Shown here piece after piece: positions 17,789-26,297 of a stretch of DNA of 64,000 bases. The notes under the pieces were generated by a model that was not told where the DNA came from, ran no database searches, and saw only the letters and a program-made list of their open reading frames with translations. The stretch is from Echinicola marina (lineage in GTDB: Bacteria; Bacteroidota; Bacteroidia; Cytophagales; Cyclobacteriaceae). The number at the start of each line of letters is the position of its first letter. Position 1 is the first letter of the stretch. A program made the position numbers and the translations under genes. The stretch covers positions 127,001-191,000 of the forward strand of contig NZ_CP080025.1 of assembly GCF_020463795.1 (NCBI RefSeq), written 5' to 3'.

Positions 17789-17919
17789 ACCACACTTAAA
17801 GAAATGAAAAAGTACTTTCAGAAAATTTCGAAATAATATTTGGAATCCACTCAACAAAAGCTCTCCTGCTCCCACTTTATAGAATCAAAAAACCGTCACA
17901 ATCAATCCAAAAAAGGCAA

Positions 17920-17950
17920 AAAAAGTCCCCGCAAAAACCGCGAGGACTTT
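17920..17950 (-). terminator. terminator of the amino-sugar operon
   Basis: AGTCCCCGC (17924-17932) pairs with GCGAGGACT (17940-17948) apart from one mismatch. A T-run follows on the minus strand. Confidence 0.75.
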
Positions 17951-17974
17951 CCCATATGGCAATTTAATTTGCTT

Positions 17975-19381
17975 TTAAACCCTTACTTTGGTATTTCCTC
18001 CACCTTCTAGGGTAATGCTAACTGGCGTATTGGTTTTCCAAGCTCCACCAGTAAAGTCTGGCACATCAATAGAGGTAGCTCTATTGGCTACAGACCATTC
18101 AGACAATGGAGAAATAGCACTCCAAAGGGCTGCATCATAAACATCTTGATCCAACGGAAGTCCATTCCTAAGACAATCCACCAATCTCCATGTCATCATA
18201 AAGTCCATACCTCCGTGACCTCCGATTTTCTTGGCCATTTCACCCACTTTCTTGGTGATTTCTGGAGTATATTTTTCCTTCAGGTCATTCATTTGTTCCT
18301 CTGTAAACCACCTATGTCCAGTAGCGACACCTTCTTTTGGCCATTTTCTAGCAATCCCCTTGGTACCGCTTACCAAATGGATTCTTGAATATGGTCTTGG
18401 AGAAGTCACATCATGCTGGATCATGATAGAACGCCCTTTCTTGGTTTTCACAATAGTGGTGTTCATATTTCCTCTGTAATCCTCTTCTGCATAAGAAGCA
18501 AAGAAATTATCCTCTTCAGCTAGTTCCTGGGCATGCTTCTTCATCATGAAGTCATTACTTGACAAGGAAGTCAAATAATCCATTTGGTCACCTCTGTTGA
18601 TGTCCATGATCTGACAGATTGGTCCCAATCCATGAGTAGCATAAAGGTTACCATTTCGGAAGTTTTCCTTTAACCTCCACATATCCTCATAACCAGTTTT
18701 GCTGAAGTTCAATCCTAGCAAGTCATGTAAGTAAGCGCCTTCCCCATGCACGATATCTCCAAAGAAACCATCTCTGGCCATATTCAAGGTCATCATTTCG
18801 AAGAAGTCATAGCAACAGTTCTCCATCATCATGCAGTGCTTCTTAGTGCGCTCAGAAGTCTCCACCAATTCCCAGCATCCTTCCAAAGTAGTCGCAGCAG
18901 GAACCTCAATAGCAACGTGTTTATCTGATTCCATGGCATATACGGCCATTGGTACGTGCCAATCCCATGGAGTAAGGATGAAGATCAAATCGATGTCATC
19001 TCTGTCCACCATTTCTTTCCATGCATATGCTGACCCTGAATAAGTATCAGGATTGTGAGGCGTTCCTTTTAACTTTTCCTTCATCTTGTCCACCTTCTCA
19101 GGAACAAGGTCACAAATACCCTTTATCTCAACACCTTGTATTTTGCTCATTCGCTCTACGTGACCTGGACCACGCATCCCCAAACCAATGAATCCTACGC
19201 GAACTACATCTAGTTTTGGAGCGGCATAACCAGACATATTGAAACGCTGGTTTGCTTTTCTTTTGCTTTGTTTTAATACATTATCCATTTCGGCTTGAGT
19301 GAAGCCACTCATACCTGCTCCTACCAACCCCATGCCTGCCAATCCAGACAGCTTAAGAAAGTCTCTTCTATTATTGCTCAT
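17975..19381 (-). CDS. Tat-exported Gfo/Idh/MocA family protein, GH109-like
   Basis: This is a 468-residue NAD-dependent oxidoreductase-fold protein. The N-terminus has a twin-arginine signal (NNRRDFLKLSG, Arg5/Arg6) followed by a hydrophobic stretch. A Rossmann motif follows (GFIGLGMRG, 63-71, then GHVERM). The GMRGxG type of motif, the Tat signal and the length are those of GH109 proteins, which use bound NAD to hydrolyse alpha-N-acetylgalactosaminides. Generic Gfo/Idh/MocA dehydrogenases look similar, so the glycosidase call is an inference. It is the last gene of a six-gene operon, 77 bp after the amidohydrolase, and the operon's AgaS and aldolase genes fit N-acetylgalactosamine use. A terminator follows. 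Confidence 0.75.
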   Translation of the reverse strand: MSNNRRDFLKLSGLAGMGLVGAGMSGFTQAEMDNVLKQSKRKANQRFNMSGYAAPKLDVVRVGFIGLGMRGPGHVERMSKIQGVEIKGICDLVPEKVDKMKEKLKGTPHNPDTYSGSAYAWKEMVDRDDIDLIFILTPWDWHVPMAVYAMESDKHVAIEVPAATTLEGCWELVETSERTKKHCMMMENCCYDFFEMMTLNMARDGFFGDIVHGEGAYLHDLLGLNFSKTGYEDMWRLKENFRNGNLYATHGLGPICQIMDINRGDQMDYLTSLSSNDFMMKKHAQELAEEDNFFASYAEEDYRGNMNTTIVKTKKGRSIMIQHDVTSPRPYSRIHLVSGTKGIARKWPKEGVATGHRWFTEEQMNDLKEKYTPEITKKVGEMAKKIGGHGGMDFMMTWRLVDCLRNGLPLDQDVYDAALWSAISPLSEWSVANRATSIDVPDFTGGAWKTNTPVSITLEGGGNTKVRV

Positions 19382-19458
19382 TTTTATTATATGGTTAGTG
19401 TAATTTTTCTCTTTTTAATTTCTTCCTTGGCCTAATTGACAGGACAATAAACCATCTT

Positions 19459-20445
19459 CTACTGACCAAATCGATAAATCCTTGCGGCATTGGAATAAAA
19501 TATCTTTTCCAAAACTTCCTCAGGCAAAGCTAGTCCTTTAAAAGTCCCTGAAAATTCAGGAGCTTCCAATTCCTTTTCCGTTGCAAAGAAGTCCCAGTGG
19601 AATTTCCACAAATGCTCCAGCCTATCTGCTACACCTTGCTCTCCAAAAGACCCATCATCAATTACATCCGTTCCATAAATGATCCTGTCCTGATACTTGA
19701 TCATGAAGTTTCTCACATCTTCCCATCTCTCCTTGGATTGCAATTGCAAATGACAAACTCTTTCTGCCAAGTCTGTGAGCAAGTTAGGATATTTATCCAT
19801 TCGCTTACTTACTTCATCAATGCTGTATTCCATACTTAGCAAGTGAAGCCCCACAAAATTAAGCTTCGGATACTTTTCCAGCATATTATCCCTAGCATCC
19901 ATTTGCGCCATATAGGAAGGATATTCTGGATGAAGGTACATGTGATATTCTGGATGACCCTGAAAATAATTCCTATCCGAATCAACAGTCATTTCTTCCA
20001 ATGGCAACCAGCAATTTCTAGGCTCCCCTTGATGACCTATCAAAAGAATCTCATTTTCTTCCAAGTACTTGAATATAGGCGCTAAACTTTCATCATCGAT
20101 CATGATAAACCTACCATCTTTATCCTGTAAGTCCATCCCGATATTTTTCCAGATTTTTACTCCAACGGCACCATTGTCCAGACCTCTTTGAATTTGTGCA
20201 ATGGCCTTATCAGCCCAATCAGACTCACCCCAATTCTCTGTGGAGAAGGATGTGATATATTTGATCTGATTGGGATACTTTTTATCCAATTCCTTTATCA
20301 CCTGCTCTTGTCCCTCAATAGAATCAAAAAAAGGAATCTCAGTAATAATGGAAAGAAACGATACCCCATGCGCTAACGCTTTTTCCATTTTTTGGGTGGA
20401 AGTAGTGTTCAGATGTACGTGGGCGTCAATAAAGGGGCGTATCAT
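19459..20445 (-). CDS. amidohydrolase-family metal hydrolase
   Basis: This is a 328-residue TIM-barrel hydrolase of the amidohydrolase superfamily. Predicted metal and catalytic residues are H9 and H11 (DAHVH), K97 in GAVGVKIWK, H138 in LIGHQGE, H201 in GLHLLS and D260 in YGTDV. It has no signal peptide, so it is cytoplasmic. It starts the base after the aldolase stop and sits inside the amino-sugar operon. The expected step not covered by the other genes is deacetylation of N-acetylgalactosamine-6-phosphate, but the protein does not resemble NagA/AgaA closely, so that role is a hypothesis. A lactonase-type activity is an alternative. Confidence 0.75.
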   Translation of the reverse strand: MIRPFIDAHVHLNTTSTQKMEKALAHGVSFLSIITEIPFFDSIEGQEQVIKELDKKYPNQIKYITSFSTENWGESDWADKAIAQIQRGLDNGAVGVKIWKNIGMDLQDKDGRFIMIDDESLAPIFKYLEENEILLIGHQGEPRNCWLPLEEMTVDSDRNYFQGHPEYHMYLHPEYPSYMAQMDARDNMLEKYPKLNFVGLHLLSMEYSIDEVSKRMDKYPNLLTDLAERVCHLQLQSKERWEDVRNFMIKYQDRIIYGTDVIDDGSFGEQGVADRLEHLWKFHWDFFATEKELEAPEFSGTFKGLALPEEVLEKIFYSNAARIYRFGQ

Positions 20446-21270
20446 TTACTGTTCGTTTTTCATTATTTCCAACTTCTTAGTTACCAAACCGGTAACCGAT
20501 TCTGTAGCCTTAGGAAACACCTTTCTAAGGTCGATCTCCTCATTTTCTTTCAACAATTGCTGAAGTGTTTTCATGAAGATATTTTTGATTTCAGTAGCAA
20601 GATTCACCTTACAGATACCTTTAGAAATAGCCTCTCTCAATTGGGCCTCAGGCACCCCAGAACTACCGTGCAATACCAAAGTTGCTGGTGTAGCAGCTGC
20701 AATCTCAGTCAATAAGTCAAACTGCAATTTAGGTTCTTCTTTATAGAATCCATGGGCAGTACCAATTGAAATGGCCAAAGCATCTACTCCTGTTTGCTCC
20801 ACAAAAGTGCTTGCCTCTTCCGCTGTAGTAAAGCCTTGGTGCTCATGAGACTGACCTAACTTAGCCACATATCCCAATTCTGCCTCTACATGCGCTCCAT
20901 ATTTATGGGCTCTTTTTACTACTTCTTGGGTGATTTTCACATTTTCCTCAAAAGGCAATTCACTACCATCGATCATCACAGAATCAAAACCAGCATCCAA
21001 ACAAGCCTGAGCCAATTCTACTGATCCTCCATGGTCAAGGTGAATCCATCCTTTCACTCCATATTGCTCCAATGCCGCTCTACCCATGGCAACGGCAGTA
21101 TTTAAGCCCATATAATCAATTGAACTTTGGGTCAACTGAAGAATAATAGGTTCGTCCAAAGCTGAAGCGGCCTTCAATACTCCCTGAAGGGTTTCAAGGT
21201 TGTAGAAGTTAGTTGCTAAAAGGCCACGTTTCTTAGTGGTAAACTCTCTTAATTGATCTTTTATTTTCAT
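20446..21270 (-). CDS. class II ketose-bisphosphate aldolase (tagatose-1,6-bisphosphate type)
   Basis: This zinc aldolase is predicted to split tagatose- or fructose-1,6-bisphosphate to dihydroxyacetone phosphate and glyceraldehyde 3-phosphate. The 274-residue protein shows catalytic D79 and zinc ligand H80 (IHLDHGG), the signature GFDSVMIDGSELPFEENV, HVEAELGYV, H173 in GTAHGFY and H201 in VLHGSSG. Its length fits the KbaY/GatY subgroup. It follows the second PfkB kinase by 8 bp and abuts the amidohydrolase. The AgaS and LacC-like genes in the operon favour tagatose-1,6-bisphosphate as the substrate. Confidence 0.88.
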   Translation of the reverse strand: MKIKDQLREFTTKKRGLLATNFYNLETLQGVLKAASALDEPIILQLTQSSIDYMGLNTAVAMGRAALEQYGVKGWIHLDHGGSVELAQACLDAGFDSVMIDGSELPFEENVKITQEVVKRAHKYGAHVEAELGYVAKLGQSHEHQGFTTAEEASTFVEQTGVDALAISIGTAHGFYKEEPKLQFDLLTEIAAATPATLVLHGSSGVPEAQLREAISKGICKVNLATEIKNIFMKTLQQLLKENEEIDLRKVFPKATESVTGLVTKKLEIMKNEQ

Positions 21271-21278
21271 TATGACGA

Positions 21279-22223
21279 TTAGATTTCTTGATTTAAAATA
21301 CTCTTGGCCCTACTTTTTAAGTTTTCCATATTATCAAAAGCACCGGTTCCTCCCGCCGCAGTAGTATTGAGTGCACCGGTCAGATTGGCAAACTTCAGGC
21401 ATTCTTCCCAGGTATTTCCCTGTAGAAACTTACAGATAAAGCCTGCATTGAAACTATCCCCAGCTCCAATAGCATCAACAAATTGATCATTGATATAAGG
21501 TTCTGCCTTGATAATCTCCCCTTTTTGATAAACCAGTCCTCCTTTTATCCCCATCTTTAGGGCTATAATATTGGCATGGTCCTTCAGCTCTGCCAAGGCT
21601 TCATCTATTTCAGTCTTTCCTGTAAGAGAAAGCAACTCTGATTCATTCGGTAGAAATATATCCACATAAGGCAAACAGGACTTATAGTCAAAATCCCACT
21701 GGTCATCCGGATCTACTTGAAGATCCAGTGAAGTGCTCATCCCTGCTTCTTTGGCCTTTTTAAAGATCTCAGTGATATCTTTTTGAATTCCCTTTTGAAG
21801 AAAGTAATTGGACAAATGAAAATGCTTGTACTCCGATGCCTTTTCCCAAGGAATGTCTTCAATGGTCAAATCTTCCATAGCCCCACAATAAGTCACATTC
21901 GCTCTGTCCTGATCATAATTCATCACTACTGTCAAGCCCGTCTTGAACGCTTTGGAAACCGAAATATGCTCCACTCCGACTTGTTTGTTCTTTAAAGTTT
22001 CACACACAAACTGACCGAAATCATCATTTCCTACTTTTCCGCAAAAGGAAGTCTCAATTCCCAGGGTAGCTATATTGGAGGCAAATATGGCAGAAGAACT
22101 CCCCAAAGTCACATCCATCTTCTCGGCTACCTTTTCGGAACCCATTTCAGGAAATCCTTTGATTTGATTTAGGATCAAATCTATATTCAGTTCACCTACT
22201 ACTAAAAGGTCTTTTTTATGCAT
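21279..22223 (-). CDS. PfkB-family carbohydrate kinase (ribokinase/fructokinase-like)
   Basis: This is a 314-residue sugar kinase. N-terminal elements are VVGELNIDLIL and the TLGSSSAIFASNIATLG substrate loop. The catalytic C-terminal motif is DAIGAGDSFNAGF (250-262), with the base D256. It is less like the 1-phosphofructokinase branch than its upstream neighbour and closer to ribokinase/fructokinase types that phosphorylate free sugars. It overlaps the upstream kinase gene by 8 bp. In the operon it could phosphorylate the incoming amino sugar, leaving the other kinase for tagatose-6-phosphate. The substrate is inferred from context only. Confidence 0.85.
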   Translation of the reverse strand: MHKKDLLVVGELNIDLILNQIKGFPEMGSEKVAEKMDVTLGSSSAIFASNIATLGIETSFCGKVGNDDFGQFVCETLKNKQVGVEHISVSKAFKTGLTVVMNYDQDRANVTYCGAMEDLTIEDIPWEKASEYKHFHLSNYFLQKGIQKDITEIFKKAKEAGMSTSLDLQVDPDDQWDFDYKSCLPYVDIFLPNESELLSLTGKTEIDEALAELKDHANIIALKMGIKGGLVYQKGEIIKAEPYINDQFVDAIGAGDSFNAGFICKFLQGNTWEECLKFANLTGALNTTAAGGTGAFDNMENLKSRAKSILNQEI

Positions 22224-23139
22224 AACTTAATTCTTTTATTGACACCTTAGGAAGCAATTCCTCCACATCCGAACGATACAACATTCCCAAATCTTCTCTC
22301 AGACAGTTAGCAGCTCCAAAAGCAACTCCATGCCTAGCGATCTCCTCGACAGAAAACCCTTGGTTCACCCCATAGGCTATCCCTGCAGTCAAACAATCTC
22401 CACTTCCAACAGTACTTACTACCTGATCAATCACTACATTGGCATGAATTATCTTTCCTAAATAGCCAAGATAAAGTCCTTCCTTTCCCCGGGTAAGTGC
22501 TACCAAATCCACTTTCTCACTTAAAACCTGCATGGCCTCCAAAGGATCATCCTTTCCACAAAGCTCCTTTGCTTCATGTTCATTGAGATGCAATCCAAAA
22601 AAACCTCTTTCCAGCGCATTGGCAAGTTGTATACCACTACAGTCCAAAATGACTTTTTTGCCTTTTTCTTCTGCTATCGCTGTCATTTCTGCATAAGCAA
22701 ATGCTGGGCTTCCTTTAGGCCAAGAGCCAGAAAGGACTGCAAGACCAGCATTATCCAAATGCTCGCTGAAGTTTTTTATAAATGCAAGATACTGTCCCTC
22801 ATTTAACTCGGGACCTGGCTCCAACAATTCTGTATGATGCAAATCCTCGTCCTCTGAAAGAAAGGTATAGCACTTTCTATTGGCACCTACCAATTCAGGC
22901 CCATAGCTTTTCATTCCCAATTCTTCACAAAACTCCCTTATCCATTTACCTGAATGCCCAGCCCAACTACCCAATAAATCAGTTTTTGAACCAAACTCAT
23001 TAAGGGCCATGGCTACATGAACACCTTTTCCTCCTGCAAACTCCTGTAGTTTCGTTATCCTATTGGCAACACCCAGTTCCATCGTATTCAACCATGCATA
23101 AGTATCCACTGAAGGATTAGGACAAACTGAAAGGATCAT
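22216..23139 (-). CDS. 1-phosphofructokinase/tagatose-6-phosphate kinase family (LacC-like)
   Basis: This is a 307-residue PfkB-family kinase of the phosphosugar branch (LacC, FruK). Seen: the family opening LSVCPNPSVDTYAWL, EFAGGKGVHVAMAL (34-47) and the catalytic STVGSGDCLTAGIAYG region with D248. It starts 6 bp after the isomerase gene. In an AgaS-aldolase operon its expected reaction is tagatose-6-phosphate to tagatose-1,6-bisphosphate with ATP. Fructose-1-phosphate is the alternative substrate, but no fructose PTS gene is present here. Confidence 0.87.
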   Translation of the reverse strand: MILSVCPNPSVDTYAWLNTMELGVANRITKLQEFAGGKGVHVAMALNEFGSKTDLLGSWAGHSGKWIREFCEELGMKSYGPELVGANRKCYTFLSEDEDLHHTELLEPGPELNEGQYLAFIKNFSEHLDNAGLAVLSGSWPKGSPAFAYAEMTAIAEEKGKKVILDCSGIQLANALERGFFGLHLNEHEAKELCGKDDPLEAMQVLSEKVDLVALTRGKEGLYLGYLGKIIHANVVIDQVVSTVGSGDCLTAGIAYGVNQGFSVEEIARHGVAFGAANCLREDLGMLYRSDVEELLPKVSIKELSYA

Positions 23140-23145
23140 GTCAAT

Positions 23146-24315
23146 TTACTTTTTGTATATAATTACTCCTTGAACTACCCTGCTGATCGCTCCACTTACA
23201 GAAGGATTATCAGGTTGCAAGCCTAATTGAAGACATTTGTAAAAACCTAATAACTGCCCTACCATGGTAGCAGGCAACACATTGAATACCGCATCCTCAG
23301 CAGCTCCTTCAACAGGTATATTCAAAATAGAATTATACTCTTCTACATTTTCGTCACCGAAACAAACGGTTTTAATATCTCTTTTATCCTGTCCGATACT
23401 CAAAGCCAAATCATTTTCATATTGGACGACATGGGCATCTTTTGCAAATAAATATACTACCAAAGAATCCTCATTGGCCACTGCCCTAGGTCCATGCCTG
23501 AAACCTAAGAAAGAATCATGCTTACAAACCACTTGACCATCAGTTAGCTCCTGTAATTTCAAATGACACTCCCTTGACACCCCTAGCATTGAACCCGATC
23601 CAAGGAAAATCACTCTTTTGAAATCGCGTTCTGCCAAAGCCTCAAAATCTTCCAATTGATGATGCAGGATATGATTAGCGGTAGCAACAGCATTATCAAA
23701 GGCTGGTTTTAACTTATCCAATGCTTTAATTCCCGCAACCATCAAAACAGTCAGCAACATAGAAGTAAAACTTCCTGTCATTGCAAGGCTATTGTCATTT
23801 GCTGCTTCAGGCAATACAATTGCCAAACAGTTTCCTTCACACTCGTTGGCATAAGCCGCCAATTGCCCCTCAGCATTACATGTAATGACCAAATGATATA
23901 TTTGATTACAAAACTTATCTGCCAATCTTACCGCTTCCACACTCTCTGGACTATTCCCTGACCTTGCAAAAGAAACCAAAACTGTTGGTGTACCAGCCAT
24001 GAAAAATAATTCCGGATGCGTCACCAAATCGGTAGTCGCAATGGCCTGAGTCAACACACCGGTTTTTTGCTGAACGATGCCCTGAGCTGATTCTCCGATA
24101 AACGCCGATGAACCTGCCCCAGTCAAGATTATCCTAGCATTACCTTTTTCAAAAATTGGATCAACAAAATCCTGGATCTTCTCCTTCATTTGATCCACTT
24201 GTTCATAAACCTGGCTCCATAGCTCTGGCTGCCCAGCTATTTCTTTTGCTGTGTGAAATGCCCCTTTTTTCTCTGCTAATTCAGTATTAAGGGTCAAGTA
24301 AGTGGTTTGTATCAT
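23146..24315 (-). CDS. AgaS-like SIS-domain sugar-phosphate isomerase/deaminase
   Basis: This 389-residue protein has two SIS domains. The first shows ILTGAGSSAFIGESA (63-77) and SFARSGNSPES (115-125); the second begins about residue 215 with VIFLGSGSMLGVSRE and includes HDSFLGFRHGPRA. This pattern is that of AgaS, the galactosamine-6-phosphate deaminase/isomerase that yields tagatose-6-phosphate, and the length is right. It is the first gene of the operon; a 471-bp spacer upstream carries TTTCATTT-type repeats. GlmS-like isomerases share the fold but have a glutaminase domain, which is absent here. Confidence 0.85.
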   Translation of the reverse strand: MIQTTYLTLNTELAEKKGAFHTAKEIAGQPELWSQVYEQVDQMKEKIQDFVDPIFEKGNARIILTGAGSSAFIGESAQGIVQQKTGVLTQAIATTDLVTHPELFFMAGTPTVLVSFARSGNSPESVEAVRLADKFCNQIYHLVITCNAEGQLAAYANECEGNCLAIVLPEAANDNSLAMTGSFTSMLLTVLMVAGIKALDKLKPAFDNAVATANHILHHQLEDFEALAERDFKRVIFLGSGSMLGVSRECHLKLQELTDGQVVCKHDSFLGFRHGPRAVANEDSLVVYLFAKDAHVVQYENDLALSIGQDKRDIKTVCFGDENVEEYNSILNIPVEGAAEDAVFNVLPATMVGQLLGFYKCLQLGLQPDNPSVSGAISRVVQGVIIYKK

Positions 24316-24439: not shown

Positions 24440-24505
24440 TTTCGTTTTATAACTACTTCAAATTAAACGAAATAAAATGAAACAAAAAAATTTCAATACG
24501 TTTTT
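24440..24505 (-). promoter_or_regulatory. candidate DeoR/AgaR-type operator upstream of the agaS-like gene
   Basis: The minus strand of 24465-24482 reads TTTCATTTTATTTCGTTT, which fits the TTTCRTTTYRTTTYNYTT pattern I recall for the E. coli AgaR operator. A facing half-site TTTCGTTT lies at 24440-24447 (inverted against AAACGAAA 24465-24472), and TTTCAATACGTTT lies at 24491-24503 on the plus strand. A weaker copy (TTTCATTTTCTTACGTT) is at 24682-24698. The site is about 150 bp upstream of the operon start. No DeoR regulator gene is in the window. Confidence 0.45.
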
Positions 24506-24732: not shown

Positions 24733-24762
24733 AAAAAAAGGACAGCTTTTGGCTGCCCTTTA
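24733..24762 (-). terminator. terminator of the M42 peptidase gene
   Basis: A hairpin made by AAGGACAGC and GCTGCCCTT (one bulge or mismatch per arm) around TTTTG has a T-run following on the minus strand. Confidence 0.65.
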
Positions 24763-24786: not shown

Positions 24787-25854
24787 CTATTCGATGTATT
24801 TGAAGTTAAATCCTGGATCTAAATCCTCTAAAAATGCTACAATCAAATCAATCACTGACTGAATATCTTTTTTACTAGCTGTCTCGACAGTAGTATGCAT
24901 ATATTTCAAAGGAAGAGAAATCAAGGCAGAAGGCACCCCATCATTGGAATAAGCAAATGCGTCAGTATCTGTACCTGTACTTCTGGAAGCCGCTGCTCTC
25001 TGAAATGGCAACTTCCTTTTTTTTGCTGAAGCGATGACCAAATCCAATAGCTTTTTATGTACTGAAGCCCCATAAGTCAACACAGGTCCTTTACCAGCCA
25101 CCTGTTCTCCGCTTGTGATTTTATTATACATGGGAGCTGTAGTGTCATGGCATACATCAGTAATCACAGCCAAATTGGGTTTTATCTTGGCAGCGATCAT
25201 TTCAGCACCTCTTAACCCTATTTCTTCTTGTACCGCATTCACAATATAAAGACCAAATGGCAATGCTCTTCCGCTGTCTCTTAACTTCTTGGCTACTTGA
25301 GCTATCATATAACCTCCGATTCGGTTATCCAGCGCTCTTCCTGCATAAAATTTACCATTTAGATCCATCAGTTCATCTCGGAAGGTCACCACACAACCAA
25401 CATGAACCCCTAATTCTTCTACCTCTTCCTTTGACCTTGCTCCTACATCAATAAAAATATTTTCCAAGCTTGGCTTATCTTCCTTATCTCCCTTCCTAAC
25501 ATGTATGGCCGGCCATCCAAATATCCCTGGGATTATCTTCTCATCTGTGTGGATATTTACCCGCATGGAAGGCGCAATCATATGATCTGAGCCTCCATTT
25601 CTCCTTACATAAATATATCCCTCTGGCGTAATATAGTTCACAAACCAGCTAATTTCATCAGCATGAGCCTCTATCACCACTTTAAAAGAGGCTTCTGGAT
25701 TGATAACACCTACTGCTGTGCCATAAGCATCCGTAAAATATTCATCCACATAAGGCTTTAAATAATCCAACCAGATTTGCTGACCAGAAGCTTCAAAGCC
25801 TGTGGGAGAGGCATTGTTTAGGTATTTATAGAGAAATTGTTCTTCGTTTGTCAT
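24787..25854 (-). CDS. M42-family metallo-aminopeptidase
   Basis: This is a 355-residue cytoplasmic dinuclear-metal aminopeptidase (M42, glutamyl aminopeptidase/endoglucanase M type). It opens with LNNASPTGFE, the usual family start. Metal ligands are H64 and D66 in EAHADEISW, and the Asp of the RALDNRIGG motif. The Glu pair is in AVQEEIGLRGA, with an Asp in ITDVCHDTT and a His in YMHTTVET. These enzymes form large tetrahedral assemblies and trim peptides. It is flanked by a terminator on one side and the four-helix protein gene on the other, and probably has its own transcript. Confidence 0.9.
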   Translation of the reverse strand: MTNEEQFLYKYLNNASPTGFEASGQQIWLDYLKPYVDEYFTDAYGTAVGVINPEASFKVVIEAHADEISWFVNYITPEGYIYVRRNGGSDHMIAPSMRVNIHTDEKIIPGIFGWPAIHVRKGDKEDKPSLENIFIDVGARSKEEVEELGVHVGCVVTFRDELMDLNGKFYAGRALDNRIGGYMIAQVAKKLRDSGRALPFGLYIVNAVQEEIGLRGAEMIAAKIKPNLAVITDVCHDTTAPMYNKITSGEQVAGKGPVLTYGASVHKKLLDLVIASAKKRKLPFQRAAASRSTGTDTDAFAYSNDGVPSALISLPLKYMHTTVETASKKDIQSVIDLIVAFLEDLDPGFNFKYIE

Positions 25855-25931: not shown

Positions 25932-26297
25932 TTACAATTTTCTACTCTTTTTTATAGAAGAAATATGGCCATTTAAGAGCTTCAAGCAATCATAATGATA
26001 ATCTCGATAATCTTTTAGATCATCTATAGAAATCAAACCTTCGTCAAAAGCAACAATCATATGGTCTAATGTTTCAAAAAGAGATCCTCTAGCCTGTCTA
26101 CAAAATTGGATATTCTCATCATAAGTTCCTCTTCCAAACCCTTCCGCAATATTATTCCCTATAGACCTTGAAGATTTTTTCACCTGACTGACCAGTACAA
26201 ACTTCTCCTCAACCGGGAAATCGCTTACTAGGTTAGCGGCAAAAACCCTTAAATCTCTCGCTTTTCCCCATACTTCGAGCTCCTCAAAACTATTCAT
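25932..26297 (-). CDS. four-helix-bundle protein (23S rRNA IVS-type)
   Basis: This is a 121-residue all-helical protein of the family first found in 23S rRNA intervening sequences. Seen: FEELEVWGKARDL, then the FPVEEKFVLVSQVKKSSRSI helix, then the very conserved GNNIAEGFGRG motif. The family forms pentameric bundles with no settled function. Here it is not near any rRNA gene. It lies between the acyl-CoA carboxylase and M42 genes on the same strand, with spacers of 56 and 77 bp. Confidence 0.9.
   Translation of the reverse strand: MNSFEELEVWGKARDLRVFAANLVSDFPVEEKFVLVSQVKKSSRSIGNNIAEGFGRGTYDENIQFCRQARGSLFETLDHMIVAFDEGLISIDDLKDYRDYHYDCLKLLNGHISSIKKSRKL

Follow-up and report, generated by a model that had tools for sequence, protein, structure and literature searches.

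A probable AgaR-controlled, phosphotransferase system-independent operon for N-acetylgalactosamine catabolism in Echinicola marina

Results

Six genes and their flanking features in the E. marina genome

The window analysed here, a stretch of 64,000 nucleotides, corresponds to positions 127001-191000 of the single-contig 5.69-Mb genome of Echinicola marina. It contains six consecutive open reading frames (ORFs) on the minus strand, separated by 6, -8, 8, 0 and 77 bp, which probably constitute an AgaR-controlled operon for the catabolism of N-acetylgalactosamine (GalNAc) that does not depend on a phosphotransferase system (PTS). An earlier annotation of the same DNA, made from the sequence alone and referred to below as the original prediction, had described the six genes with the positions and gaps that are also found in the ORF list. 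The features are as follows, in window coordinates:

23146-24315, minus strand: agaS, first gene of the operon, for a predicted SIS-fold galactosamine-6-phosphate deaminase/isomerase (family matches; 36% identity to Escherichia coli AgaS over 385 residues; below the TIGR02815 cut-off)
22216-23139, minus strand: lacC-like gene for a proposed tagatose-6-phosphate kinase (PfkB family, 1-PFK/LacC branch; PDB and profile matches)
21279-22223, minus strand: gene for a second PfkB kinase, proposed as a galactosamine or GalNAc 6-kinase (PDB match YdjH; a relative lies near agaS elsewhere)
20446-21270, minus strand: gene for a class II ketose-bisphosphate aldolase, proposed as a KbaY-like tagatose-1,6-bisphosphate aldolase (39% identity to E. 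coli KbaY over 231 residues)
19459-20445, minus strand: gene for a PF04909 amidohydrolase without N-terminal extension, proposed as a GalNAc or GalNAc-6-phosphate deacetylase (conserved H9, H11, K97, H138, H201 and D260)
17975-19381, minus strand: gene for a GH109 protein, proposed as an alpha-N-acetylgalactosaminidase (PF21252; PDB 6t2b and 2ixa; Tat-like RRDFLK start)
24460-24487, minus strand: predicted AgaR-type operator with TTTC repeats that overlap (24465-24482 match the pattern TTTCRTTTYRTTTYNYTT perfectly)
17919-17953, minus strand: terminator-like hairpin after the last gene (weak evidence)
24737-24761, minus strand: terminator-like hairpin between the next upstream gene (24787-25854) and the agaS promoter (weak evidence)

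The two hairpins in the scanned stretch compare with a mean of 4.8 in shuffled sequences; being no commoner than in the shuffles, they count as weak evidence only.

A probable tagatose-6-phosphate branch encoded by agaS, the lacC-like gene and the aldolase gene

AgaS contains an SIS domain and matches the solved structures 3odp and 3c3j with 289 and 229 bits, respectively. TIGR02815 is by far its best model (370.6 bits, cut-off 529.2). The best solved relatives of the LacC-like kinase are tagatose-6-phosphate kinases (2jgv, 2jg1; 110 bits), and the protein falls just under the cut-off of the 1-PFK subfamily (205.2 versus 216.4) and below that of the lacC equivalog (116.2 versus 409.55). The aldolase passes the cut-off of the cbbA subfamily (240.2 versus 215.6) without reaching the tagatose-specific ones. 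Three related clusters (loci L146, L147 and L157) lack LacC and encode GatZ/KbaZ-like proteins instead. These are above the PF08013 cut-off, strongly in L147, where identity to E. coli KbaZ is 49%, and weakly in L146 and L157, and none of the three reaches the cut-off of TIGR02810. In L157, moreover, the usual aldolase is replaced by one of the LacD type (NF009498, above cut-off). Replacements of this kind support the assignment of the enzymes to a tagatose-6-phosphate branch. A passage in PMC12118421 proposes KbaZ/AgaZ as a tagatose-6-phosphate kinase.

AgaR and its predicted operator

The original prediction had noted the absence of a local regulator. This proved correct for the operon; the genome, however, does encode AgaR. 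The counterpart of a DeoR-type gene carried by related clusters resides 53 kb from the operon (204082-204837; L159:9077-9838). Its product shares 78% identity with the protein encoded in the Galbibacter cluster and 40% with E. coli AgaR. The Echinicola and Galbibacter proteins both score above the cut-off of 260 set for AgaR (NF040755), with 268.4 and 266.0 bits, respectively. A GH20 beta-hexosaminidase gene is found at a distance of about 0.9 kb, and a gene of the endonuclease/phosphatase family is also near. A second AgaR-like paralog (41%) is encoded at 2122352.

Gibbs sampling of 18 upstream regions yielded a TTTCGTTT-type motif with scores of 285.0 at width 14 and 341.3 at width 20, compared with 183.1 and 211.2 for the best of six shuffled sets, a difference whose significance is overstated because fewer restarts were used for the shuffled sets and the genuine regions are related to one another. 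The pattern TTTCRTTTYRTTTYNYTT, which we take to be the consensus of E. coli AgaR, has three perfect matches in the whole E. marina genome, and one of these is the site upstream of agaS. When one mismatch is allowed, 17 matches are obtained versus 20 for a reversed-pattern control, so that an AgaR regulon cannot be drawn from matches of this quality. The aga locus of E. coli K-12 has three perfect matches, one in the agaR-kbaZ interval and two ahead of agaS, and AgaR is reported in a passage of PMC3668189 to bind the agaR-kbaZ and agaS promoters. At up to two mismatches, 37 agaS upstream regions contain 37 hits in 12.95 kb, with overlapping ones counted apart, as against 105 hits in the 1616 kb of all scanned loci (agaS regions included), a ratio that is inflated by AT-rich promoters and near-identical Echinicola rows. 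At least one hit is present in 19 of the 37 regions. We regard the site before agaS as a putative AgaR-type operator and the operon as putatively controlled by AgaR.

A putatively exported GH109 protein as part of the operon

The product of the last gene scores well above the cut-offs of PF21252 (145.1 versus 27 bits) and PF01408 (57.2 versus 24 bits) and matches 6t2b with 339 bits and 2ixa with 240 bits, with a two-domain match over most of its length. These structures presumably stem from Akkermansia and Elizabethkingia. The RRDFLK start was judged Tat-like (twin-arginine translocation) by eye, and we propose that the protein is an exported alpha-N-acetylgalactosaminidase. The possibility that the gene encodes an unrelated oxidoreductase is ruled out for the operon copy by the PF21252 match and the 339 bits to 6t2b.

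Conservation of the gene ensemble

AgaS and the amidohydrolase are both present in 10 of 11 Echinicola genomes (E. marina included) and both absent from the remaining one (G002), a pattern of co-presence and co-absence which argues that the grouping is not due to chance. A scan of the genome collection with the amidohydrolase confirmed 242 stretches, the best 80 of which were taken as loci; among these, the closest named relative is Echinicola salinicaeni (L029) with 98% amidohydrolase identity. agaS is present in 18 of the 21 loci with an amidohydrolase of at least 55% identity (L029-L049), and the other three are from Leeuwenhoekiella. Looking for the gene order in other genomes, as the original prediction had proposed, revealed the series agaS-lacC-pfkB-aldolase-amidohydrolase in several other genera. 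The arrangement usual among the loci is agaS-lacC-pfkB-aldolase-amidohydrolase-(GH109)-DeoR regulator. Loci L043 and L048 have, of the operon set, only agaS, pfkB and the amidohydrolase gene together with the regulator.

Because many loci had been drawn with the amidohydrolase and were thus biased, 395 genomes of the phylum were searched with AgaS only. Twenty were positive, including E. marina, and the counts refer to the other 19. In 16 of them, a member of the amidohydrolase family is encoded no more than 8 kb from agaS, with 46-57% identity in 13 and 32-36% in G250, G254 and G383; it is absent near agaS in G067, G337 and G214, the last of which encodes a NagA-like protein slightly under cut-off (223.6 bits). 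The second PfkB gene is near agaS in 17 of the 19, at a distance of up to about 7 kb, and a DeoR/AgaR-like regulator is encoded in the fetched stretch likewise in 17, two of these being fragments at the stretch end. For 37 distinct AgaS loci, a biased set from which four duplicates and short AgaS fragments had been dropped, the genes found near agaS are those for PfkB (35), the amidohydrolase (34), the aldolase (32), LacC (22) and GH109 of at least 55% identity (15). A strict linkage of amidohydrolase and AgaS is ruled out by three Leeuwenhoekiella loci and by a metagenome-assembled genome (MAG) of the Balneolaceae (L053, 2.3 Mb), which has the short form without an AgaS match. The five-gene series from agaS to the amidohydrolase gene is present in a Leeuwenhoekiella MAG (L047). 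In Pricia antarctica (G453, the genome of L050), the AgaS match (G453:C29:126062-127210) contains one internal TGA, and the closest amidohydrolase gene lies on that contig at a distance of about 18 kb.

PTS, NagA/AgaA and transport

The original prediction had stated that PTS proteins and NagA/AgaA are missing. In the entire genome, this holds for PTS enzyme I and for NagA/AgaA above cut-off. The N-domain of PTS enzyme I (PF05524) has no match genome-wide, with matches in 7 of 14 genomes as a control, and the best TIGR00221 score is 28.9 bits at a cut-off of 225.65 (the search for a deacetylase did not extend to the PIG-L and polysaccharide-deacetylase families). In a survey of 29 AgaS-positive genomes and the AgaS-less G002, no NagA-like match above 40 bits was found in 21 of the 29.

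The operon does not encode a transporter, and it was therefore too strong to call the pathway complete. A search elsewhere in the genome, which the original prediction had also suggested for NagA/AgaA, provided a candidate: genes for sodium:solute symporters (SSF family) lie beside agaS in several relatives, and their closest homologue in E. marina (62% identity) is encoded at 1570086-1571858 (L160:9087-10868). This symporter may be the GalNAc transporter. Its gene is divergent from an APH-family kinase gene (350 amino acids; judged by eye, it may be an amino-sugar 1-kinase), and a gene for a BT_2158-like oxidoreductase (under cut-off) is also present there. Related clusters are often accompanied by divergent SusC/SusD genes; in the Echinicola loci L029-L031, no such gene was found next to agaS. 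The clusters of L145-L148 contain an EamA transporter gene.

The amidohydrolase and the second kinase

The amidohydrolase belongs to PF04909 (53.5 bits, cut-off 26.4). It has no NCBIfam match at an E-value of 0.001 and is thus not a member of the TIGR00221/NagA family. Its structure was predicted with a mean pLDDT (predicted local distance difference test) of 93.8. H9, H11, K97, H138, H201 and D260 are invariant in 35 amidohydrolase sequences, and K97 is located on the fourth strand of the model. The order of the strands in the model agrees with a TIM-barrel hydrolase in which an HxH motif, two further histidines and an aspartate would bind metal. Together with a lysine that is carboxylated, these residues are the typical ligands of amidohydrolases with two metals, and the enzyme may thus be of the two-metal type with a carboxylated K97. 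The structural neighbours identified with Foldseek (LigY, LigJ, hydantoinase, dihydroorotase) have template modelling (TM) scores of about 0.5, and no sugar deacetylase is named among the best 50 of 55 matches with an E-value of 0.001 or better; the substrate cannot be read from matches as remote as these. A search of PDB sequences returned one match to granulysin, which is spurious. A member of the family accompanies agaS in 16 of the 19 genomes found with AgaS only, and the amidohydrolase is the best candidate for a deacetylase in the operon.

For the second PfkB kinase, the nearest solved relative is YdjH. No equivalog cut-off is reached, and the top-scoring models, iolC and ribokinase, both remain under theirs. 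An operon for a sugar acid or inositol is ruled out, since it would be at odds with AgaS, with the AgaR equivalog and with the AgaR-type operator. We propose that the enzyme is a galactosamine or GalNAc 6-kinase.

An exported-looking sister clade of the amidohydrolase

The amidohydrolase was compared with relatives of at least 40% identity and normal length, 100 sequences in total, which were judged exported or cytoplasmic from the length and look of the stretch preceding the DxHxH motif. An N-terminal extension is missing in 34 sequences from loci with AgaS and in five from loci without it, while the remaining 61 have a signal-like or lipoprotein-like extension. In the tree, the extended forms are on one side of a branch with weak support (73/0), and all short forms except the long-branched L143 are grouped with support of 100/96. 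The conserved core is common to both forms, and no lysine or arginine specific to the AgaS-linked form was found among the compared relatives.

AgaS is present in two of 21 searched genomes whose locus has the extended form (the AgaS search covered 26 of 27 loci, L087 being left out, and the N-terminus of L091 is ambiguous). In Adhaeribacter aerolatus (L168), the series agaS-lacC-pfkB-aldolase is immediately followed by two lipoprotein-like copies (44-45%), behind which come a third, distant PF04909 protein and a pair of GH109-like genes (33-36%). The agaS cluster of Chryseolinea (L169, G461) has only a distant PF04909 protein (24%), and near agaS of G337 (L148) only distant PF04909 proteins were seen (24-26% for G461 and G337). 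In 11 of 52 loci, extended forms are encoded within 5 kb of GH109 of at least 55% identity; GH109-like matches of other loci that are below this value were disregarded. Note that for this count the L157 amidohydrolase was assigned to the cytoplasmic forms by hand, in view of its long first-start ORF and of an internal methionine that matches the start of its relative L158.

Taken together, the exported look of the sister clade suggests a substrate outside the cytoplasm that would not be phosphorylated. Such a substrate makes deacetylation of free GalNAc the likelier first cytoplasmic step in E. marina, and we lean towards removal of the acetyl group before phosphorylation. The exported forms could also act on another substrate.

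Three further observations concern neighbouring proteins. Twelve loci (L056, L065, L074, L080, L082, L084, L085, L086, L089, L093, L096 and L108) combine an exported-looking amidohydrolase with a protein family of about 412 amino acids, of which the one scanned copy (L074) has no Pfam match. Eleven of the twelve also have GH109 (61-65%) nearby, and no AgaS match was found in the five genomes searched from this group (L056, L074, L085, L096, L108). In L051, L145, L148 and L169, pfkB or the aldolase gene of the aga cluster has beside it a gene for another, distant PF04909 type (23-26% identity), whose start is signal-like. Finally, positions 25932-26297 of the window encode a 121-amino-acid protein which, judged by eye, is similar to the four-helix-bundle (S23-type) family.

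Discussion

A proposed pathway and the points that weigh on it

In the pathway that we propose, the exported GH109 enzyme would free terminal alpha-GalNAc in the cell envelope, and a transporter encoded elsewhere, possibly the symporter at 1.57 Mb, would import it. The PF04909 amidohydrolase would carry out the deacetylation, more likely on the free sugar, and the second PfkB kinase would then phosphorylate C6. AgaS is predicted to convert galactosamine-6-phosphate to tagatose-6-phosphate and ammonia; the LacC-like kinase would form the bisphosphate, which the aldolase would cleave. The gene families, the recurrence of the gene order, the AgaR equivalog, the operator match and the lack of matches to PTS enzyme I and, above cut-off, to NagA are seen in the sequences themselves, whereas we infer all substrate assignments, above all those of the amidohydrolase and the second kinase, as well as their order. 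The route from AgaS via tagatose-6-phosphate to the aldolase had already been drawn in the original prediction, and the AgaR equivalog, the operator and the GatZ/KbaZ-like and LacD replacements now lend it independent evidence.

Several observations weigh against this proposal. The scores of AgaS, the LacC-like kinase and the aldolase as a tagatose enzyme are under their specific NCBIfam cut-offs, and at two mismatches the operator is absent from 18 of the 37 agaS upstream regions. G067 and G337 have neither NagA nor a close amidohydrolase (no match, or one of at most 29%), and in three genomes outside the sample (G024, G453, G461) the amidohydrolase family is found only away from agaS. Conversely, the Leeuwenhoekiella loci L044, L045 and L049 have an extension-less amidohydrolase of 56-59% identity and no AgaS match. 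A NagA-like protein of more than 150 bits is encoded in eight of the 29 AgaS genomes (G003, G004, G006, G010, G214, G218, G227 and G258; two above cut-off), four of them Echinicola. We know of no sugar deacetylase in PF04909. The candidate symporter gene is far off, and its 19.9-kb stretch (L160) has no AgaR-type site at up to two mismatches.

For the amidohydrolase, we tentatively advance, at rather less than an even chance, that it is the founding member of a new GalNAc deacetylase family whose substrate is the free (or glycosidic) sugar, with a cytoplasmic clade in aga operons and an exported sister clade that is partly encoded beside GH109. Acetyl removal would then precede phosphorylation, the reverse of the textbook aga order.

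In principle, the second PfkB kinase could instead act first and provide GalNAc-6-phosphate, for which the amidohydrolase would be the deacetylase. This is the sequence of steps in the original prediction, whose placement of a deacetylase within the operon is retained here with the amidohydrolase as best candidate, whereas its order of kinase before deacetylase is disfavoured by the exported-looking family members. Passages in PMC12118421 and PMC2996990 describe that the E. coli deacetylase works on GalNAc-6-phosphate and that Shewanella uses a permease and a GalNAc kinase in place of the PTS. The operon amidohydrolase lacks an N-terminal extension, and, L143 excepted, the extension-less forms constitute a separate supported group; yet no lysine or arginine is peculiar to the AgaS-linked form, and its core is the same in the exported-looking relatives, two of which fill the operon slot in A. 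aerolatus, where a sugar phosphate is an improbable substrate. We consider the kinase-first order a doubtful, though serious, alternative.

It is unlikely, in our estimation, that the amidohydrolase performs some other hydrolysis on GalNAc-containing material and that the deacetylase is encoded elsewhere. NagA/AgaA is not above cut-off in the genome, within the limits of the search given above, the amidohydrolase is linked to AgaS in 16 of 19 genomes, and its exported-looking relatives are close to GH109 in 11 of 52 loci. These points have to be set against the remoteness of the solved folds without a named sugar deacetylase, the three AgaS genomes that lack the enzyme near agaS, and its occurrence without AgaS in Leeuwenhoekiella. 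That the operon serves galactosamine, another amino sugar or a ketose rather than GalNAc is very improbable: E. coli AgaS also serves galactosamine, according to a passage of PMC3668189, and AgaS clusters without a deacetylase candidate exist (G067, G337), but the GH109 gene, the amidohydrolase if it is a deacetylase, and the proximity of agaR to a GH20 hexosaminidase gene point to an N-acetylated sugar.

Significance and comparison with known systems

Judged by titles and abstracts, no Bacteroidota GalNAc operon of this arrangement was found in the open literature. A gut survey describes, in a passage of PMC5583593, the GalNAc pathway only for Actinobacteria, Firmicutes and Proteobacteria, with AgaA as a crucial signature. 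If our interpretation is true, annotation based on AgaA overlooks a Bacteroidota GalNAc route, a PF04909 subfamily acquires a function, and the AgaR operator has been kept across phyla. A PTS-free GalNAc pathway is not new in itself, because passages in PMC2996990 and PMC12118421 describe the kinase-permease variant of Shewanella. What appears new is a variant of the known route in which the deacetylase and the first kinase come from families not tied to it in the tools and papers used.

The E. marina system has AgaS, a KbaY-type aldolase, AgaR and the operator pattern in common with the E. coli aga/gam regulon (agaR, kbaZ, agaVWEF, agaA, agaS, kbaY, agaBCDI). It differs in lacking PTS enzyme I and AgaA, in having a LacC-like kinase in place of KbaZ and two PfkB kinases in all, in the PF04909 amidohydrolase and GH109 gene within the operon, and in the position of agaR 53 kb away. 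The product of the second gene has LacC (2jgv, 2jg1) as its best solved relatives, yet does not reach the lacC equivalog cut-off. The GH109 protein belongs to the same family as the known alpha-N-acetylgalactosaminidases 6t2b and 2ixa and is distinguished from them by the location of its gene within a catabolic operon. The non-PTS route of Shewanella (AgaP, AgaK, AgaA-II, AgaS), to which we liken the operon by description only, also has a kinase and a permease instead of the PTS and a variant deacetylase, as set out in parts of PMC2996990 and PMC12118421.

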